Shown one piece after another: positions 3,054 to 27,706 of a DNA stretch of 28,950 nt. Origin of the DNA: a virus; the IMG/VR virus record IMGVR_UViG_3300030329_002857, positions 1 through 28,950 of that record; one strand, written 5' to 3'. Below the pieces are notes generated by a model, which saw only the letters and a list, made by a program, of their open reading frames with translations, had not been told where the DNA came from and did not search any database. The first letter of the stretch is position 1; each line of letters starts with the position of its first letter. Made by a program: the position numbers and the translations under genes.

Positions 3054-4321
3054 TACCTTACTGTTCTTACATTAGTTAAAAATGGTAAAGCATTTCTTGC
3101 CTGTTCTGACTTGGCAAACCAAAATGCTGCTATATTTCTCATGCCATCAACATCAATGTCAGGCCTTACAGAGCCTGCCTGTGCTGCCAAAGCAGTTGCA
3201 TAAGCTACTATATACCTCTCAGGTACTTCGGTTGTATCTGAGTCTGAGGATAGTTCTGCAGGAACATCTCCTCCTGACAGTTTAATTAATCTGTAAGAAG
3301 CTAATGCTCTTCCTCTGTCTGATAAGACTAAGTCAGCAGTACTAGCTCCCTGTGTTGTACCTTCTTTATCTATTCTCCAAGTATCTCTTGGAAGTTTCTC
3401 CCATACTGCAGTATCATTCTTAACTACTTTAATATCATCTAAATGAACTACACAAGCCCCTAAATCAGAATCATATTCAAATCTTACTTGTGTGATAGCT
3501 GTGTTATCATAAGGAGCAACCAATGCTACTCTGCAATATTTCCAAACATTAGCTGTTAAAGCAGGAACATCTAATGATTCTTCAATCCCACCTGCATCTA
3601 CTAAATGTATTTTTAAATTACCTGCACTTGTAGCTACTGAAGACTTAATCCAAAACTCTATATAATCATACTTTGATATGTTTACAGAGGTGATGGTATC
3701 TGAGGCTGTATCTCCTGCTGAAGCACCTACTGCAATAACAATTTTGTTAGAAGCAGATTCTGTTTTATAATCTTCTGTATCTGCTGTTATAGTAAAATCA
3801 GAATCAACACTATCATCAAATGCTGTATTGCAATTATGTAATTGCTTTACAGTAAACTTATCTCTGTAATAAATATCCTGTATCATGTTTATACCACTAG
3901 GTATTTCCCATCTAGCATTAATTCTATCTGTGTGTATATCAAGATTTTCTACAGGGTCATAAATTCTTCCTGTTATTTCCCATATAGATTGATTAATATA
4001 TTCATCTATTACATCAGGATCAAAGCCACTTTCCCACAACTCATAAGTTACACTACCTGCAACAGTACCTCCTACTGCAGCAAATGTCATAGTACCTGTT
4101 GAAGCTGTATAATCTGTTATTCTTCTAGTAGTACCATCATAAGTACCTGAAGTGATACGAATATAATATCCATTATATTCATCATCGCCACCAAACAATG
4201 TAGCATCTACAGCAGTAGTAGTAGAACCACTACCTGAAGTAGTACCTGTTACCATCTTACCAAGGTTTCTGCCTACAGCTTTTCTTAAATCCTCTAATGT
4301 TTTGCCGTGTGTTATTGCCAT
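3053..4321 (-). CDS. Head-to-tail connector/adaptor-like protein with beta-sandwich insertion (422 aa)
   Basis: The ends of the protein are helical. Near residues 100-120 is DPDVIDEYINQSIWEITGRI, and near 365-400 are VPERYIVAYATALAAQAGS and AAFWFAKSEQAR, a pattern typical of phage adaptor proteins that bind below the portal. Two beta modules interrupt it. Residues about 24-96 contain NGYYIRITSGTYDGTTRRI. Residues about 160-302 look like a galactose-binding-type jelly roll (YDYIEFWIKS, then VWKYCRVAL and VVHLDDIKVV), a fold often used for carbohydrate or surface binding. At 422 aa it is much longer than a minimal adaptor such as T7 gp11. It follows a 46-aa basic gene with an AGAAGG site and feeds into the 623-aa tail gene by a one-base overlap. 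The connector call rests on helices and order. Confidence 0.5.
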   Translation of the reverse strand: MAITHGKTLEDLRKAVGRNLGKMVTGTTSGSGSTTTAVDATLFGGDDEYNGYYIRITSGTYDGTTRRITDYTASTGTMTFAAVGGTVAGSVTYELWESGFDPDVIDEYINQSIWEITGRIYDPVENLDIHTDRINARWEIPSGINMIQDIYYRDKFTVKQLHNCNTAFDDSVDSDFTITADTEDYKTESASNKIVIAVGASAGDTASDTITSVNISKYDYIEFWIKSSVATSAGNLKIHLVDAGGIEESLDVPALTANVWKYCRVALVAPYDNTAITQVRFEYDSDLGACVVHLDDIKVVKNDTAVWEKLPRDTWRIDKEGTTQGASTADLVLSDRGRALASYRLIKLSGGDVPAELSSDSDTTEVPERYIVAYATALAAQAGSVRPDIDVDGMRNIAAFWFAKSEQARNALPFLTNVRTVR

Positions 4322-21906: not shown

Positions 21907-22020
21907 GATAGCTACACTACTTTACTTCCTTCATTGCTAGATAGCTACAGCACTTTGCACTATTTTTTATAGTGTTCTATTTGTATGTTATATACTTTAA
22001 TAGTATACAAACAGCTACAG
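21907..22020. repeat. AGCTACA direct repeats (iteron-like)
   Basis: GATAGCTACACTACTTT (21907-21923) and GATAGCTACAGCACTTT (21940-21956) match at 15 of 17 positions, with starts 33 bases apart. A shorter third copy, CAGCTACAG, lies at 22012-22020. The shared core AGCTA also appears in the 20-bp repeats upstream. Two small hairpin-forming stretches lie between: CACTAT/ATAGTG at 21958-21974 and TTTGTAT/ATACAAA at about 21980-22011. These resemble iterons or operator arrays, but function is unproven. Confidence 0.45.
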
Positions 22021-22033
22021 TCAAATAAACAAA

Positions 22034-22066
22034 GCAATTAATCTTCCAAGTATTCAGATTAATTGC
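22034..22066. repeat. Perfect 11-bp inverted repeat
   Basis: GCAATTAATCT (22034-22044) pairs exactly with AGATTAATTGC (22056-22066) around an 11-base loop. No T-run follows, so it is not a classic terminator. Confidence 0.6.
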
Positions 22067-22096
22067 TATATCGCTAAAGGATTCTTAAAGGTCAAT

Positions 22097-22143
22097 TTCC
22101 GCTTTTTGGGAATTTGAAGGCGTACCTATCGCAAAAAGCGGAA
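22097..22143. repeat. Perfect 12-bp inverted repeat
   Basis: TTCCGCTTTTTG (22097-22108) pairs exactly with CAAAAAGCGGAA (22132-22143) around a 23-base loop. It begins 31 bases after the preceding 11-bp hairpin. Confidence 0.6.
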
Positions 22144-22182
22144 CCAAAAACGATTGGATTCGCATCTTAAACAAAATGCCTG

Positions 22183-22283
22183 CGGCGGTTAATTTCCTAT
22201 GGGAAATGAATTATTGTTCGCTAAATTGCTGATGTTCCTCAGCCCTTCGGGCTCCTATAGAGCAGTCCGCCCACATTCGTGGG
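22183..22283 (+). ncRNA. Possible multi-stem structured RNA
   Basis: GGCGG near 22184 can close with CCGCC near 22268. Inside are ATTTCC/GGAAAT (about 22192-22207), GCTGA/TCAGC (22228-22243) competing with AGCCC/GGGCT (22241-22253), and GCTC/GAGC. Directly after is CCCAC/GTGGG around ATTC (22270-22283). Several short GC stems in an AT-rich, gene-free stretch suggest a folded RNA, but no known class is recognised and the stems are short. Confidence 0.3.
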
Positions 22284-22322
22284 TCGTATCATAGCATCTG
22301 AAAAATAAAATCGCAACAGTTT

Positions 22323-22343
22323 CCCCCCGAGAACCCCCCGAGA
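22323..22343. repeat. Two copies of CCCCCCGAGA
   Basis: The 10-mer CCCCCCGAGA occurs at 22323-22332 and 22334-22343, one base apart. It starts the C-run-rich part of the control region. Confidence 0.7.
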
Positions 22344-22363
22344 GATAAAAAGCACATCTTCAC

Positions 22364-22396
22364 GTCGGGTTTATCCTGCTGACAGGATTCCCCGAC
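22364..22396. repeat. Two-tier hairpin
   Basis: An outer stem GTCGGG (22364-22369) with CCCGAC (22391-22396) encloses an inner stem ATCCTG (22373-22378) with CAGGAT (22383-22388) around the loop CTGA. A T-run (TTTTT) lies about 14 bases further on, so a weak plus-strand terminator is possible. Confidence 0.45.
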
Positions 22397-22421
22397 ATGA
22401 AATGAGCAATTTTTACTCTTA

Positions 22422-22600
22422 CCACTTTATGCAATTTTATTTTGTCAGACCGAAAATCGATTGGGGTCTTTTGGCAAAACATATGGTAAAGTGGAATGAC
22501 TTATTTGCCAAAAGTGGCACCCCCACCAAGACCCCAACAATCTCCCCAAGTGCCATCTGCCGAACTATGTGAAGGCTAAACTCAATATGCTATCGGCAGA
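22422..22600. repeat. Interleaved inverted repeats with alternative pairings
   Basis: CCACTTTA (22422-22429) complements TAAAGTGG (22487-22494). CTTTTGGCAAA (22468-22478) complements TTTGCCAAAAG (22504-22514). These two pairs interlock, as in a pseudoknot. GGGGTCTT (22463-22470) also complements AAGACCCC (22528-22535), competing with the second pair. Further on TGGCAC (22515-22520) complements GTGCCA (22550-22555), and TCTGCCGA (22556-22563) complements TCGGCAGA (22593-22600). Confidence 0.55.
22532..22547 (+). repeat. 16-bp repeat CCCCAACAATCTCCCC, copy 1
   Basis: This sequence recurs exactly at 24108-24123. Both copies are on the plus strand, in the two largest non-coding gaps. Confidence 0.8.
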
Positions 22601-22644
22601 CCCATCCTATCGATTCCCCACTCCCCAACGTTTTCCCCCCTTCT

Positions 22645-22653
22645 TGCTATATT
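22645..22653 (+). promoter_or_regulatory. Candidate extended -10 promoter before first plus-strand gene
   Basis: TGCTATATT fits the extended -10 form TGnTATAAT with one mismatch. No -35 is seen. It would give a leader of about 45 AT-rich bases before the ATG at 22704, a simpler start than the consensus promoter 1 kb upstream. Confidence 0.25.
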
Positions 22654-22703
22654 AAAATTAAGTTTTTTATTTATTTTATTTATATTAAATTAAGGAGTTA
22701 ATT

Positions 22704-22908: not shown

Positions 22909-23112
22909 ATGACTATATTCAACACTATTAATTGTAACTATAAATGTACTAAAGACTTTAGTGCAGACATATGTGCATATTGTTTCTTTCATTATAGTGC
23001 AGACACTAATGACGAGAGATTAGCATATTGTAGCAAAAGTGGTTACTTCACAGGTAATGCAGACGAACTCTTATTAACAATTTATTATAGCTTCAAAGGA
23101 GCAACAAAATGA
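22909..23112 (+). CDS. Small cysteine-containing protein (67 aa)
   Basis: A strong AAAGGAG site inside the end of the previous gene precedes this ATG. The protein has Cys9, Cys13, Cys22, Cys25 and Cys41, including DICAYCFFHYS, a CxxC pair followed by His28. A single zinc site is therefore possible. The C-terminal third is more hydrophobic (ADELLLTIYYSF). Its TGA overlaps the next ATG as ATGA. It is not recognisably related to the previous gene except in size and Cys content. Confidence 0.6.
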   Translation: MTIFNTINCNYKCTKDFSADICAYCFFHYSADTNDERLAYCSKSGYFTGNADELLLTIYYSFKGATK

Positions 23113-23321
23113 CAGACAACATTCGTAACTATGTAGACATTAATCAAAGTAATCAACATCATGTTAATGAACAACCACGACTAAGTGATTGGGAAATTGA
23201 CATGGCACACTATGAAGACTACTCCAAGTATCAGTTACTAATTGACACTTGTAAGGTGTGTTCAATTCAACAATGTTGGGTACATGAATACTATCCAATT
23301 CCACCTAAATCTAGAAGATAG
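23109..23321 (+). CDS. Small protein with CxxC...CxxH cluster (70 aa)
   Basis: Overlaps the previous stop by ATGA and has AAAGGAG eight bases upstream of ATG. The N-terminal 40 residues are hydrophilic. Residues 48-59 read CKVCSIQQCWVH, giving Cys48, Cys51, Cys56 and His59, a compact CxxC-x4-CxxH set that could hold one zinc. The tail PIPPKSRR is basic. It ends the first three-gene run, and the conserved-loop hairpin begins 28 bases after its stop. No known family. Confidence 0.6.
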   Translation: MTDNIRNYVDINQSNQHHVNEQPRLSDWEIDMAHYEDYSKYQLLIDTCKVCSIQQCWVHEYYPIPPKSRR

Positions 23322-23348: not shown

Positions 23349-23391
23349 AAAGACTAAGCTTTGTGAAACAAGTGAACAAAGCTTAGTCTTT
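23349..23391 (+). other. 16-bp perfect hairpin with AAACAAGTGA loop (copy 1)
   Basis: AAAGACTAAGCTTTGT (23349-23364) pairs exactly with ACAAAGCTTAGTCTTT (23376-23391). The loop carries AAACAAGTGA (23366-23375). There is no T-run after it, so simple intrinsic termination is not expected. It ends 25 bases before the GGAG of the next gene. The same loop tops two other hairpins with different stems. Confidence 0.85.
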
Positions 23392-23424
23392 GGGTACTTT
23401 ATTAATTATAAAAAAGGAGTATAT

Positions 23425-24018
23425 ATGAGTACATTTAGTTCAACTACAAAAGACATTTGGAGTCAATTCTTAGAAGGTTCAGAACCACCGGCAGGTTGGG
23501 TAAGAAAAACTAAGGGTGATATGTATCTAGACACTAGAACAGGAAACCCTACCAAACCTGTACAACCTGAAAAATTTGATGTGTATGTTCGTGGAGTAGG
23601 ATTAGTTAACCATGCAGGTAACATACCATCACAAGCAATTAAACCATACTACAAAGCTATTTATGACTATGAAAGATATATAGAAGATGAAAGAACATTA
23701 GCTAAATTAAAAGCTATTCATCCAACAATAGCTAACGGAAGTAAAACAGACTTCACAGAAGAATTAACTGAGTGGAGAACAAAAAGAGATTCTGTTAATC
23801 CATATGGTGCTAACAAAGGTAATATGACTCTGAATGAAATTGCAAATAACAGAAAACTATATTATGAATATAGGGATAGAGTTAACGCAATGGTAGCTAA
23901 AGAAAAGGGATTGTTCGGAACAATCAGCGACCAAGCATTCGCAGAAGAAGAGCATAAAGCAGTTACTAGCGAATCAGTAGCACAAGTAAAAGAAAAGTTA
24001 TCTAAAAAAGATAGATAA
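23425..24018 (+). CDS. Protein of unknown function in its own transcription unit (197 aa)
   Basis: An upstream in-frame extension exists to 23242, but it crosses the preceding gene and the long hairpin. The ATG at 23425 has GGAG six bases before it and is the clear start. The protein is soluble, charged and largely helical, beginning STFSSTTKDIWSQFLEGSEP. Middle segments are YYKAIYDYERYIEDERTLAK and EIANNRKLYYEYRDRVNAMV, and it ends in a Lys-rich helix (VAQVKEKLSKKDR). No signal peptide, membrane helix or catalytic motif is seen. The gene is bracketed by the hairpin 33 bases upstream and a strong terminator 18 bases after its stop. It therefore forms a single-gene unit that could be expressed apart from its neighbours. 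No family is recognised. Confidence 0.65.
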   Translation: MSTFSSTTKDIWSQFLEGSEPPAGWVRKTKGDMYLDTRTGNPTKPVQPEKFDVYVRGVGLVNHAGNIPSQAIKPYYKAIYDYERYIEDERTLAKLKAIHPTIANGSKTDFTEELTEWRTKRDSVNPYGANKGNMTLNEIANNRKLYYEYRDRVNAMVAKEKGLFGTISDQAFAEEEHKAVTSESVAQVKEKLSKKDR

Positions 24019-24035
24019 TTAATTAACTCAAAATG

Positions 24036-24080
24036 CAGGAGCATAGATTGCGTAAGCAATCTTGTTCCTGTATTTTTTTA
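24036..24080 (+). terminator. Strong rho-independent terminator
   Basis: CAGGA (24036-24040) pairs with TCCTG (24066-24070), and AGATTGC (24045-24051) with GCAATCT (24056-24062) around a GTAA tetraloop. It is followed by TATTTTTTTA. It lies 18 bases after the stop of the 197-aa gene. Confidence 0.85.
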
Positions 24081-24107
24081 TTAATTCAGTAAAGGAATCA
24101 CCCCATG

Positions 24108-24123
24108 CCCCAACAATCTCCCC
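24108..24123 (+). repeat. 16-bp repeat CCCCAACAATCTCCCC, copy 2
   Basis: Exact second copy of 22532-22547, placed 28 bases after the terminator's T-run. Confidence 0.8.
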
Positions 24124-24184
24124 GTCATAATAACAAAAATTTTAAGCTAAACGAAAAAGTAGCTATTTTAGTAAAAAATTTTTG

Positions 24185-24232
24185 GTCGGTATTGCAACCG
24201 ACAGTGCACTCAGTATTGCAACTGAGAGTGCA
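24185..24232 (+). repeat. Two tandem 24-bp hairpin units with covarying stems
   Basis: Unit 1 (24185-24208) is stem GTCGGT, loop ATTGCA, stem ACCGAC, linker AGTGCA. Unit 2 (24209-24232) is stem CTCAGT, loop ATTGCA, stem ACTGAG, linker AGTGCA. Loop and linker are identical. Two of the six stem pairs differ, and both arms change together (G-C to C-G, G-C to A-T). The second unit can alternatively close as TGCACTC with GAGTGCA. Confidence 0.85.
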
Positions 24233-24236
24233 AGTG

Positions 24237-24307
24237 CCCCACCCACCCACCCAAGCACCCCACACAACCCAAGAATCCCCACCCCACCCAAGCCCCCTTT
24301 TGGGGGG
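24237..24307 (-). other. C-rich tract; G-quadruplex motifs on the minus strand
   Basis: The complement of 24237-24252 reads GGGTGGGTGGGTGGGG, a canonical very stable quadruplex pattern with single-base loops. The complement of 24277-24297 gives a second four-run motif. Then comes a CCCCC-TTTT-GGGGG hairpin (about 24293-24307). On the plus strand the same stretch is C-rich and G-poor, the composition of rho-loading sites, so a rho-dependent terminator is a competing reading. Confidence 0.55.
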
Positions 24308-24314
24308 AATACAT

Positions 24315-24343
24315 CCTGACATGTCAGGCGTGATGTTTATAAA
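24315..24343 (+). promoter_or_regulatory. 14-bp palindrome overlapping a candidate promoter
   Basis: CCTGACATGTCAGG (24315-24328) is perfectly self-complementary. CTGACA within it (24316-24321) and TATAAA (24338-24343), 16 bases apart, form a plausible promoter whose start would fall near the base of the next hairpin. A regulator bound to the palindrome would cover the -35. Confidence 0.35.
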
Positions 24344-24344
24344 T

Positions 24345-24385
24345 AAAATAAAATCTCTCTAAACAAGTGAGAGAGATTTTATTTT
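24345..24385 (+). terminator. 16-bp perfect hairpin with AAACAAGTG loop (copy 2)
   Basis: AAAATAAAATCTCTCT (24345-24360) pairs exactly with AGAGAGATTTTATTTT (24370-24385). The 9-base loop is AAACAAGTG, with the closing A making AAACAAGTGA. The A-rich 5' arm and T-rich 3' arm could terminate in both directions. It ends about 15 bases before the AGGAG of the next gene. Confidence 0.8.
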
Positions 24386-24408
24386 TGAGTATATAAATAG
24401 GAGAATAT

Positions 24409-24702
24409 ATGAGTAACGAAGAAAAAATAGAATTTAATGTTATGCTAGACATAGCACAAGAAGAACAAGAGAAACGAGATAAAAATATAATAAATCAATT
24501 AGAAACTAAACATGCCCCAATGATAGACGGCATCTTTGAACATTACCTAAGCTTAGATAAGCAAGAATTTAAAGATGAGTTCTATCGTATAGTTACATCG
24601 TGGTACTTACAGGCACCTCATGGAACAGCAAAGGTATGGATAGAAGAGAACAATAAGGCAATAGAAACAGAGCATGAAATGCAGTTAAGATATGATATTT
24701 GA
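24409..24702 (+). CDS. Acidic helical protein of unknown function (97 aa)
   Basis: The ATG has AGGAG five bases upstream and lies 23 bases after the second conserved-loop hairpin. The protein is acidic and mostly helical (EEKIEFNVMLDIAQEEQEKR, then FKDEFYRIVTSWYLQAPHG) without Cys clusters, membrane segments or enzyme motifs. It starts a tight run of five small genes (97, 45, 65, 55 and 90 aa) that ends at the third conserved-loop hairpin, so the two hairpins frame one operon. No family is recognised. Confidence 0.6.
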   Translation: MSNEEKIEFNVMLDIAQEEQEKRDKNIINQLETKHAPMIDGIFEHYLSLDKQEFKDEFYRIVTSWYLQAPHGTAKVWIEENNKAIETEHEMQLRYDI

Positions 24703-24724
24703 TTTTACAAATTGGAGTACCAAG

Positions 24725-24862
24725 ATGATAAAAGAATATCTTAGTATGGTTAATACTACGTCAACTAAATACTATAACAGGATATCTAACAAAAAATTAT
24801 ATCAAATAAACAGAGCCACACACGAATTAAAAAGGAGAAAGAGATATGGCATCAAAAGATAA
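24725..24862 (+). CDS. Small basic protein (45 aa)
   Basis: A short frame from ATG (24725) to TAA with GGAG eight bases upstream. The product begins MIKEYLSMVNTTSTKYYN and ends in a Lys/Arg-rich stretch (HELKRRKRYGIKR), so nucleic-acid binding is plausible. It fills the interval between the 97-aa and 65-aa genes. Its last 17 bases overlap the next gene in another frame and contain that gene's SD, a typical coupled arrangement. No family recognised. Confidence 0.55.
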   Translation: MIKEYLSMVNTTSTKYYNRISNKKLYQINRATHELKRRKRYGIKR

Positions 24863-25043
24863 AAGAATAATTAGCATCCATGATTTTTGGAATGTAAAGC
24901 ATGACATTATAACCATTGAAGTAGAAAGCGGTATAGGAGGAAGTGAACATCTTAATAACATAGAACATGAATTAGATAGGTTGGGTTATAAACTTGATAA
25001 TATAAATTATATGGATATTACATATATTGGGAGAAATAAATGA
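24846..25043 (+). CDS. Small protein of unknown function (65 aa)
   Basis: ATG with AAGGAG about seven bases upstream, inside the end of the 45-aa gene. The protein alternates strands and helices: IISIHDFWNVKHDIITIEVE, then HLNNIEHELDRLGYKL and MDITYIGR. This looks like a small alpha/beta fold (beta-beta-alpha-beta) rather than a disordered peptide. Its TGA overlaps the next ATG (ATGA). No catalytic residues or family are recognised. Confidence 0.6.
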   Translation: MASKDKRIISIHDFWNVKHDIITIEVESGIGGSEHLNNIEHELDRLGYKLDNINYMDITYIGRNK

Positions 25044-25207
25044 GTGAAAATCTTGAAGGATTTAAAATAAATTGCATAATTCATTCATCAAATGAAAAAC
25101 TATGTGTGATATGTCAGGCAAATCTAGAGTATTTGCCACAGATTTGTAAGGAATGTTGGTATAAATGCAAAGAATGTAAAGGAGAATTAAATGACTATAA
25201 AAGATAA
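25040..25207 (+). CDS. Zinc-ribbon-like small protein (55 aa)
   Basis: The ATG overlaps the preceding stop as ATGA, and GGGAG lies about seven bases upstream. Three CxxC knuckles are present: Cys22/Cys25 (LCVICQ), Cys36/Cys39 (ICKECW) and Cys43/Cys46 (KCKECK), plus Cys12. The spacing fits a compact treble-clef or zinc-ribbon fold binding one or two zinc ions, known from transcription and RNA-binding factors. The last 17 bases overlap the 90-aa gene and contain its AAAGGAG. A regulator or host-directed protein is plausible, and no specific family is named. Confidence 0.6.
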   Translation: MSENLEGFKINCIIHSSNEKLCVICQANLEYLPQICKECWYKCKECKGELNDYKR

Positions 25208-25463
25208 TTTTGAAAAAGAAATAGAAAGAAATCCAATAGATTTTAAAATGGAAATTGAACAGGTATTTGAACCTGAAGATTGCACTATGGTCATGGAAGA
25301 CTATGGCAAGTGTCAGGATTATCCTTGTGATGATTGTACTAAAAGATTCCTAAACAGCAGATGTAAAAACTGTTGGGAAGAAGAAAAAGCTAACGATAAC
25401 ACATGGGATATGTGTAAATCATGTGCTAATGAAGTTCATAAAGAACTAGGCACACAACCTTGA
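25191..25463 (+). CDS. Cysteine-rich, probable zinc-binding protein (90 aa)
   Basis: An AAAGGAGAATTAAATGA start block precedes it, the same block found before the gene at 27707. The N-terminal 30 residues are charged and helical. The rest has eight cysteines: Cys31, Cys41, CDDC (46/49), CKNC (58/61) and CKSC (75/78). Four pairs could bind two zinc ions, in a double-knuckle arrangement similar to the preceding 55-aa gene. It is the last gene before the third conserved-loop hairpin, which begins seven bases after its stop. Function unknown. Confidence 0.6.
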   Translation: MTIKDNFEKEIERNPIDFKMEIEQVFEPEDCTMVMEDYGKCQDYPCDDCTKRFLNSRCKNCWEEEKANDNTWDMCKSCANEVHKELGTQP

Positions 25464-25470
25464 TAATAAA

Positions 25471-25515
25471 AAATAAAAAACTATTTCCAAACAAGTGAGA
25501 AATAGTTTTTTATTT
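25471..25515 (+). terminator. 17-bp perfect hairpin with AAACAAGTGA loop (copy 3)
   Basis: AAATAAAAAACTATTTC (25471-25487) pairs exactly with GAAATAGTTTTTTATTT (25499-25515). The loop is C followed by AAACAAGTGA (25489-25498). The T-rich 3' arm fits an intrinsic terminator at the end of the five-gene run. It also lies 28 bases before the GGGAG of the DUF932-type gene. Confidence 0.85.
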
Positions 25516-25558: not shown

Positions 25559-26407
25559 ATGGAAACAAAAGTAAAACCTAAATTAGATCCTTATGCTGAT
25601 ATAAGGAAAGTACCTTTAGTAGGTACAGACGGCACTAGCTCTTCAGCTTTTGGCATTCAAACCGATACAGGTAAGAAAGGTAAAAGTAAATGGCAAGAAG
25701 TTGGAGTTGTCAGAGATGACTATTTATTAGTCAGTAATCAGCAAGTATTTGATATGGCTAATCATATCACACAAGAATCACCTCTCAAATGGGAAGTGAA
25801 AAAAGAATTTTATAATGGTAAGTCATTTGGTTTGTACTACACAGCTACAGATCAAACTCGTACTATTGATTCAGAAGATGGTATCAAGAAAGGCGATGCT
25901 GTTGCATTAGGACTACACTTCTTAAATAGTTATGATGGAAGTAAAGCCCTTACAGCAGGATTGCATCTTGAAAGATTAATCTGTGCAAATGGTATGATTA
26001 CCAACCATGGCTTGAGTAGTGTAAGAATATTACATGATAAATCAAATGCTAAATGGGAAGAAGATGTTGAAAAGATACTAGGATTAATTGATTCTAGTGA
26101 TGAACAAGTATCTTCTATGATGAGTGCATTCTCTGAAATGGATAGGTCAATCTTAGATGAGGGTATGCTTAGACATATAGCAAATAATGTTATACCCGGA
26201 ATTGCTGATGGAACCTTTGGTAAAATTTATAGAAAATTTTCTGAAGATAACAAAGGTAATTCAGCTACAGTATGGGATTGGTATAATGCTTGCACAGATG
26301 TGCTATGGAAAAATCCAAACCAAACTAAAGCAGACTTCAGTAATAATGCTTATGTTACTGACAGAATGATTGAGTTTACTAACAAAGAATTAGTGGAGGT
26401 AGCTTAA
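25559..26407 (+). CDS. DUF932-family phage/plasmid protein (282 aa)
   Basis: The central part matches the DUF932 (TIGR03299-like) pattern. It has SAFGIQTDTG near residue 30, NQQVFDMANH near 60, LHFLNSYDGSKALTAGLHLE near 122-141, and directly after it RLICANGMITNHG, the characteristic Cys-Asn-Gly-Met motif of the family. Members occur on phages and plasmids and have no established biochemical role; some lie near recombination or replication genes. Length is normal. The ATG is preceded by GGGAG at a slightly long spacing. The gene ends in a one-base overlap (TAATG) with the ParB-like gene, so the two are probably made together and may act together. Family likely, function unknown. Confidence 0.7.
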   Translation: METKVKPKLDPYADIRKVPLVGTDGTSSSAFGIQTDTGKKGKSKWQEVGVVRDDYLLVSNQQVFDMANHITQESPLKWEVKKEFYNGKSFGLYYTATDQTRTIDSEDGIKKGDAVALGLHFLNSYDGSKALTAGLHLERLICANGMITNHGLSSVRILHDKSNAKWEEDVEKILGLIDSSDEQVSSMMSAFSEMDRSILDEGMLRHIANNVIPGIADGTFGKIYRKFSEDNKGNSATVWDWYNACTDVLWKNPNQTKADFSNNAYVTDRMIEFTNKELVEVA

Positions 26408-27441
26408 TGGATAGCATAGAAAAATTGCTTTTAACAAAAGTTATAAAACCTATTAATACAGTATACGAAACTAAAGAATATAGTCTGTTTGGAGATTGTC
26501 CTTTTAATAGAGATGTATTTCCTGACCATCTTCAAAAAATAATGTTTAATATTCACAAGAAAGATTTAGGAGAAGGTGCTCCAATTGTTGTGGATAAAAG
26601 TTATATTATTGTTGATGGACAAACTAGGTTTGAAGCTAGAAGATTACTAGACAAACCGATTCAATTTATACAAGTTGAATGGTTAAATCTAGAAGAAGAT
26701 ATAGCTCTTCTAAATATAAGCCAAAGACCTTGGAAACCAAAAGACTTTTTACATAATTACAGTACTCTACATCAAGTTAAAAATAGAACAGAGTTTGAAA
26801 ACTATACATTACTTGAAGATTTTATGCACAAATATTCTATAGAATTAGGTTTTGCAATAAGAGTCTTTCAATTAAGAAAGGATGCAACAAGTGCTAATAC
26901 AATCTTTAAAGATGGTAAACTTCTTTGCCCTGACATAAATACATCAGGAGAATTAATTGAGTTTATGCAAGAGGCATTTTCTATTATAAATATTGGAACT
27001 GTACCTTTCCAACGAGCTTTATGGTATATCTTTGAAAATGAAGAAATTGATAATGAACTTTTCTTAGATACTATGAGAGATAGGAAAAATACTTTCCGAC
27101 CCGGACTCAAAGTAGCTAAAGAATATGTTAGATGGTTTGATGATTCAATAATTAATAGACAAACCTATGGAAAGTTTAGAGAAAACAATCCACATTGGGA
27201 AAAAGAAATACCTGTTAATTTTATAATCAATGATTATGAAAATAAAATTAAAGCAGAAAAAATTAAACAATTAGAAGAAATGAGAAAAGAAAAGAAAGAT
27301 GAAGCACAAGAAAAGCTTAAACAAAAAGCTAAAAGATTCTTACAGGAAAAAGAATATAGTAAGAAACACAGGACAGGCCCTGTTTTAGGAGGAGAACTTG
27401 GAAGTGCTCCTAAATATATTGTTCCTGAAGATAAGGAATAG
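26407..27441 (+). CDS. ParB-like nuclease/CTPase-domain protein (344 aa)
   Basis: The N-terminal 100 residues match the ParB/sulfiredoxin-fold domain. NRDVFPDHLQKIMFNIHKKD is followed by GAPIVVDKSYIIVDGQTRFE and then ARRLLDKPIQF. The GQTRFEA segment (71-77) corresponds to the GERRxRA box that binds nucleotide in ParB proteins. LNISQRPWKPKDF (from about 102) fits the following ParB motif. Residues about 275-325 are a highly charged coiled coil (KAEKIKQLEEMRKEKKDEAQ). The family includes CTP-dependent DNA clamps and small DNA nucleases; which applies here cannot be told. An internal GGAGG at the end of the DUF932-type gene serves as its SD. Replication or DNA-binding role is inference. Confidence 0.7.
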   Translation: MDSIEKLLLTKVIKPINTVYETKEYSLFGDCPFNRDVFPDHLQKIMFNIHKKDLGEGAPIVVDKSYIIVDGQTRFEARRLLDKPIQFIQVEWLNLEEDIALLNISQRPWKPKDFLHNYSTLHQVKNRTEFENYTLLEDFMHKYSIELGFAIRVFQLRKDATSANTIFKDGKLLCPDINTSGELIEFMQEAFSIINIGTVPFQRALWYIFENEEIDNELFLDTMRDRKNTFRPGLKVAKEYVRWFDDSIINRQTYGKFRENNPHWEKEIPVNFIINDYENKIKAEKIKQLEEMRKEKKDEAQEKLKQKAKRFLQEKEYSKKHRTGPVLGGELGSAPKYIVPEDKE

Positions 27442-27706
27442 TCCCTTAATTGACAGAGAGAGTTATTCAGTATGGATATTAAATGGAGTGGTCAAACTCT
27501 AGGATATACACAAGCATGCTTGATAATATATAGACCGACCACATCGAACAGCTCTCTCTATTTATTCAATACTCTTGGTGATGTTCCCGTAAGTCCCCAT
27601 TAAGTTGAGGGTAGAACATGAGGCTAGTGTGAACTGAATAAACAGCTTAATGCCTACTAGAAAAGGGAAGGTAGGAGCCATGAGTATATTATTAAAGGAG
27701 AATTAA
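27442..27706 (+). ncRNA. Candidate structured RNA / leader between ParB-like and zinc-ribbon genes
   Basis: This 265-base gap holds nested exact complements. AGAGAGAG (27455-27462) pairs with CTCTCTCT (27552-27559). Inside it GTGGTC (27488-27493) pairs with GACCAC (27537-27542), around the palindrome CAAGCATGCTTG (27511-27522). Downstream ATGTTC (27581-27586) pairs with GAACAT (27614-27619), extended by CCC/GGG, and CATTAAG (27598-27604) with CTTAATG (27646-27652). The segment 27634-27642 can pair with either TTATTCAG (27463-27470) or TTTATTCA (27561-27568), a switch-like arrangement. No known riboswitch is recognised. Confidence 0.4.
27680..27706 (+). CDS. Eight-codon leader frame (MSILLKEN)
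   Basis: A minimal frame, ATG to TAA, starts just after AGGAGCC and ends directly before the ATG of the 95-aa gene (TAAATG). It contains that gene's AAAGGAG. Ribosomes translating it would unfold or occlude the downstream site, so it could be a regulatory uORF, or simply chance. Confidence 0.3.
   Translation: MSILLKEN

Follow-up and report, generated by a model that had tools for sequence, protein, structure and literature searches.

A family of perfect hairpins with a fixed loop and changing stems at early gene boundaries of uncultured phages

The early module of the viral DNA analysed here contains members of a hairpin family, found as 3 to 5 perfect hairpins between the early genes of uncultured viruses of bacteria, in which one loop is kept on stems that change. 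Stems measure 14–18 bp and loops 9–13 nt across copies, and the shared loop reads AAACAAGTG(A) in DNA and AAACAAGUG(A) in its RNA form. That this is a real family and a loop-defined element, recognised by its loop, is well supported. The family is new to Rfam: there was no match at the gathering score in the DNA described below, the early modules gave only matches below that score, and a loose E-value yielded nothing credible. No paper on this loop motif was among those listed by a literature search.

Hairpins of the window and their positions in relatives

Structural genes occupy the − strand of the window, an IMG/VR record of 28,950 bases, and include those for terminase and a capsid-type protein as well as one in the portal position. 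The early module is on the + strand; of its proteins, only DUF932 and a ParB-like protein matched known families above noise. Three hairpins lie on the + strand of this module. H1 (23349..23391) joins a 16-bp perfect stem to the loop GAAACAAGTGA 5′ of a gene for a 197-aa protein (23425..24018, + strand); H2 (24345..24385) has a 16-bp perfect stem and the loop AAACAAGTG, 5′ of a 97-aa gene; and H3 (25471..25515) has a 17-bp perfect stem and the loop CAAACAAGTGA, 5′ of the DUF932 gene (25559..26407, + strand; Pfam PF06067, E = 2.1e-18), which served as the anchor for comparison of relatives. The invariant AAACAAGTGA occupies 23366..23375 in H1, 24361..24370 in H2, where its last A is paired, and 25489..25498 in H3; these are the only 3 copies in the record, one per hairpin loop and all on the + strand. 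The coordinates and common loop that a preliminary description had assigned to three perfect 16–17 bp hairpins thus proved exact, whereas the spacing of 15–28 bases that it gave between hairpin and SD did not: the distances are about 22, 13 and 25 nt for H1, H2 and H3, respectively. These are also the three longest perfect hairpins of the window, the next longest having 12 bp, and in predicted folding they gave z-scores of −7.1, −5.7 and −7.2, with 0/200 shuffles as stable.

A terminase search produced 74 viral contigs, among which same-loop hairpins were found in L008/L077, L018 (G015, L134), L020 (G017, L135), L019 and L064. A pattern scan added L082 and L123 as carriers, and a RepA search added further copies in L263, L265, L267 and L268, the last being the same contig as L123. 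Ten clearly different stems were recovered from these IMG/VR relatives, on the coding strand in every case, at five early-module positions: before a 70-aa gene (a), before the 197/210-aa gene (b), before the 97-aa gene (c), before DUF932 (d), and after a 204-aa gene but before a structured RNA (e), the position of the copies from the RepA search. H1, H2 and H3 occupy b, c and d, and e would fall past the window end; counterparts of H2 and H3 are present in L082 and L134. For most copies the distance to the preceding stop codon is −8 to 27 nt, those at position c following it by 272–326 nt. On the 3′ side, either the next ATG is 11–46 nt away or the copy opens a structured non-coding RNA. In the window, the 326 nt of non-coding DNA between the 197-aa gene and H2 contain an ordinary terminator-like hairpin. 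The same order, in which the 197/210-aa gene is followed by a terminator-like hairpin, a conserved non-coding stretch and then hairpin c, was seen at 24019-24344 of the window and 5042-5313 of L134; the conserved stretch is CAGTAAAGGAATCACCCCATGCC with the stem GTCGGTATYGCAACCGAC, and is C-rich in the window.

Two further structured stretches were noted near the hairpins. A conserved non-coding RNA (GAGTAAGTACTTCTGTTGG...GTACTTACTC) lies directly 3′ of hairpin e at 10588-10675 of L134, at 4505-4583 of L082 and in the relative L153, and its terminal stem is kept in all three. The non-coding stretch 3′ of the ParB-like gene (window 27441-27706; L001 6399-6945; L082 2646-3090; L134 7680-8540) resembles an array of dissimilar structured RNA units arranged head to tail, each about 50–100 nt long and closed by 9–12 bp stems, with AU-rich TATTTATT linkers between them; by eye, some 2 such units can be counted in the window and 10 in L134. 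ARAGORN found no tRNA in the window and Rfam gave nothing credible for the array; its predicted stability is only moderately above that of shuffles (z −1.3 and −1.9).

It is unlikely that the hairpins act as transcription terminators or attenuators, in which RNA polymerase would halt or pause between early units at the hairpin and its T-rich 3′ arm, and the loop would be the site of an antiterminator or pausing factor. Such a role would suit the copies that lie directly 3′ of stop codons, as well as H2, H3, L134c and L082e, in which an A-rich 5′ arm faces a 3′ arm with 6–7 T per 8-nt stretch, but H1, L077 and L134 a, b, d and e have only 4–5 T in any 8 nt. Past the stem, only 1–5 T were counted in 8 nt (11 copies), short of a U-run, and the stems are not G+C-rich (15–34% G+C in 41-nt copies). 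At position e, L082 has both the T-rich arm and the kept loop, and in L134 this arm is weak and the loop differs by one base; plain termination, moreover, should be indifferent to the loop. A terminator scan of the window did not call H1–H3, which its 3–8 nt loop limit would exclude in any case. Because U-runs are missing, and because separate hairpins with real T-runs and the look of ordinary terminators occur in the same modules, ordinary termination is disfavoured and ordinary terminators fit poorly. A promoter in the AT-rich box 3′ of the hairpins was rejected, because a similar AT-rich 5′-UTR precedes DUF932 in hairpin-less phages and copy a of L134 leaves no space ahead of the SD.

Loop conservation and stem change

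The loop is invariant in 9/10 distinct stems, the single variant being AAACAAGTA in L134e. Two-sided changes were found in 14/16 pairs across the 10 distinct stems, a level reached by 0/500 shuffles, and the covariation signal was abolished by sliding the pair partners. Counted from the loop, stem positions 3 to 14 of 12 distinct copies are Watson-Crick in 144/144 cases, with no G-U and no mismatch. The earlier statement that the stems are unrelated stands in that they have no common sequence, but they are not free of preference: the four loop-proximal pairs and pair 7 usually have a pyrimidine in the 5′ arm (8–10/10 each), and 10/10 stems have A-T at pair 9, counted from the loop. Since the copies were gathered by loop and minimum stem, in a set that mixes paralogues with orthologues, position b provides the cleanest single test. 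Here the orthologous H1 and L077 hairpins differ in 5/14 pairs, each change being matched on the other arm, while the 11-nt loop is unchanged and the bases that follow, TTTGGGTACTTTATTAATTA, are identical in both. With stem divergence of 36% against 12% at four-fold synonymous sites of the adjacent gene (p = 0.05), the stems seem to evolve no more slowly than neutral sites.

Template switching is a known route to perfect stems and compensated multi-base changes (PMC8794818), and spacer inversion is among the known outcomes of such switching that are described in PMC8604942. Free stems alone are no proof of RNA-level selection, because template switching at the DNA level also yields perfect Watson-Crick stems, and the perfect stems are probably maintained in part by this route. 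We consider it very unlikely, however, that the palindromes are simply self-maintained by template switching, with no function for the loop and a common loop sequence left by recent shared ancestry. The perfect stems, the compensation without G-U intermediates and a rate of stem change that equals or exceeds the synonymous one would all be expected on this account, but the loop is identical at 9/9 positions (8/9 in L134e) even at sites where stems have lost all resemblance and the neighbouring protein is only 36% identical, and spacer inversion was never seen among the copies. Template switching can account for the missing G-U pairs, not for the invariant loop or the constant orientation.

The missing G-U pairs would be unusual under RNA-only selection, and they would be expected if both DNA strands had to pair. 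An action on DNA, in which a protein of replication, priming or nicking would recognise single-stranded or cruciform hairpins, as at plasmid single-strand origins, is nevertheless improbable. These phages do encode a RepA-like AAA_25 ATPase, but no primase or nickase partner was recognised besides it, and the hairpins keep a single orientation at gene boundaries of the early module, with no copy in the large non-coding region 22000-22700 or in the structural genes. There is likewise little chance that the loop is a base-pairing target for a phage or host RNA instead of a protein. An exposed loop of 9–11 nt on a strong stem makes a good kissing-loop partner, but there is no 10-nt complement in the window, and 7–8 nt complements in the early modules fall in coding sequence except for one 7-mer in the non-coding array of L134 (position 8141). 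No convincing complement emerged across the early modules, and a kissing-loop partner was set aside.

Outside the phage group, the loop sequence was found on short stems only. Among 55 contigs with TCTAAACAAGTGAGA, stems of at least 13 bp were confined to this group and the others had at most 9 bp; in the IMG/VR contigs of a second pattern, 116 AAACAAGTG sites had at most 6 flanking pairs; and 84,980 bacterial and archaeal genomes contained 7 exact matches to CTCTAAACAAGTGAGAG, all with stems of a few bp. A terminase search of bacterial genomes found no relative.

Lineage specificity and candidate partner proteins

The preliminary description had proposed an RNA element recognised by its loop, for which further copies in related phages and a covariance model would be informative. 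Further copies were found in which the loop is retained and stem changes are compensated, in agreement with that proposal. Matches to the covariance model (R1) were confined to this sub-lineage, apart from a weak 20.8-bit match in L016, and the loop is tied to one sub-lineage. Hairpins kept with a changed loop, named at the outset as evidence to the contrary, do occur outside this lineage, because L153 and L016 retain boundary hairpins with different loops. L153 shares 97% nucleotide identity with L134 in DUF932 and 99% in the RepA-like gene, and has hairpins at corresponding boundaries with the loops ATTAAAATG, ATATTGC, GTAAAACG and TTATCGTG; all four thus carry other loops, including one about 5 kb away. 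At position e the L153 flanks align closely and the hairpin alone differs. L016 has hairpins with other loops before its DUF932 gene and before a 187-aa gene, so that the loop at position d differs in both relatives. Since L153 and L016 keep positions with different loops, the hairpin position is probably older than the loop.

Other lineages showed repeated loops of their own. In L001, the loop TCGCATACGRCT is common to hairpins at 2728-2767 and about 3700-3760, whose stems differ and are extended by long AT-rich outer stems, and a degenerate form of this loop occurs on different stems at 4090 and 4997 of L155. A further lineage, L157, has neighbouring hairpins at 2720-2755 and 2786-2823 with the identical loop GACTGTAT and different stems. 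At position e in other lineages (L001 9840-9895; L150, L152), the hairpin loop is C-rich and conserved, CACCCCTATCCCCYAACTCCT, whereas the stem is changed; in L150 and L152 this hairpin lies about 3.8–4.0 kb after DUF932.

The 197-aa gene is absent from L153, and the coordinated switch of loops at all L153 sites together with this absence fits a single shared factor. A profile of the 197-aa protein retrieved only four contigs from IMG/VR, 4/4 of them with hairpins, and close homologues were found only in hairpin-bearing contigs, a co-occurrence that amounts to about three independent lineages; a remote homologue in L137 (E = 4.7e-7) is without AAACAAGTG. Because the gene is missing from the loop-changed L153 and all four IMG/VR contigs have hairpins, the 197-aa protein is our leading candidate for a factor that reads the loop. 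The gene for a 70-aa Cys-containing protein (23109..23321, + strand) co-occurs with the hairpins equally well. Two hairpin carriers, L082 and L123, end before the expected place of the 197-aa gene. It was not found in the 47 kb contig G035, which has copy e and which may be a chimera, because it ends about 1.4 kb upstream of that copy and has a more distant DUF932 and terminase of its own. The candidate had no PHROG, Pfam or INPHARED match and no significant PDB match, and its AlphaFold model (mean pLDDT 57) was too poor for a fold search and therefore offers no RNA-binding fold. The ParB-like protein was ruled out as partner, because L082 with hairpins and L001 without them share the same ParB type.

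These patterns could reflect a private loop code, in which the 197-aa protein would recognise AAACAAGUG on the hairpins of every early gene boundary and sister phages would have swapped protein and loop with positions kept, so that specificity and targets would change together; we regard this as possible though doubtful.

Proposed role and comparison with known systems

We tentatively propose, with a little less than even confidence, that the hairpins serve as a cis-acting RNA element, repeated at the unit boundaries of polycistronic early transcripts, whose loop would be read by a trans-acting factor. Recognition of early RNA is favoured because the copies lie between stop and start, on the coding strand only and with an invariant loop. 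Action at the RNA level, the existence and identity of a loop-binding factor and the outcome of binding are what we infer from the genomic patterns. In the + strand transcript, a 14–18 bp hairpin would follow one gene and closely precede the ribosome-binding site of the next or a structured RNA; its exposed AAACAAGUG(A) would then be read by a factor from phage or host, largely or wholly regardless of the stem sequence. Such binding could decide the fate of the boundary through cleavage, protection of new ends or controlled read-through, and thereby processing, stability or attenuation. All early units would be regulated together, because one factor would set the fate at every boundary, and H1 may give the 197-aa protein, whose gene lies between H1 and H2, control over its own mRNA. 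If true, an uncultured phage group would have an RNA regulatory element absent from Rfam, with a fixed loop on interchangeable stems, and a compact loop–protein pair that could be tested in vitro. It would also offer a natural case of how perfect RNA stems change at or above the synonymous-site rate without passing through G-U.

Several known systems share some of these features. Repeated palindromes of the REP/BIME type would be expected to conserve their stem sequence, unlike the 10 different stems found here, and the hairpin promoter of an N4-type virion RNA polymerase has a 5–7 bp stem and 3-nt loop against 14–18 bp and 9–13 nt in this family; the largest protein (1824 aa) had no Pfam match to indicate a virion RNA polymerase, although diverged polymerases could be missed. 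The hairpins resemble intrinsic terminators in standing at the 3′ ends of gene units, some with T-rich 3′ arms, but differ in the lack of a U-run after most stems, the low stem G+C and the invariant 9–11 nt loop. As at T7-type intergenic RNase III sites, long paired stems separate early cistrons; here, however, the terminal loop is invariant, which bacterial RNase III is not known to require. T4 RegB is a phage endoribonuclease that targets GGAG, mostly in SD sequences. It offers a parallel for a short sequence at early-mRNA sites and for the coordinated early-gene control proposed here, but the loop motif is different and no homologue was recognised. Lambda-type boxB combines a 5-nt loop with a short stem that is partly conserved, and N proteins diverge fast. 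The hairpins are comparable in their phage-specific loop, which differs among relatives, in their place in the early transcription region and in a cognate protein, here a candidate, and unlike boxB in their long stems of unconserved sequence; no small Arg-rich N-like family was found among the early proteins scanned, which fast divergence might hide. CsrA/RsmA sites present ANGGA in hairpin loops. The loop described here has no GGA (AAACAAGTG(A), once AAACAAGTA), its 14–18 bp stems are much longer and the hairpin leaves the SD uncovered, but the reading of one conserved loop on variable stems by a protein at several mRNA 5′ regions, as we propose, would be of the CsrA/RsmA kind.
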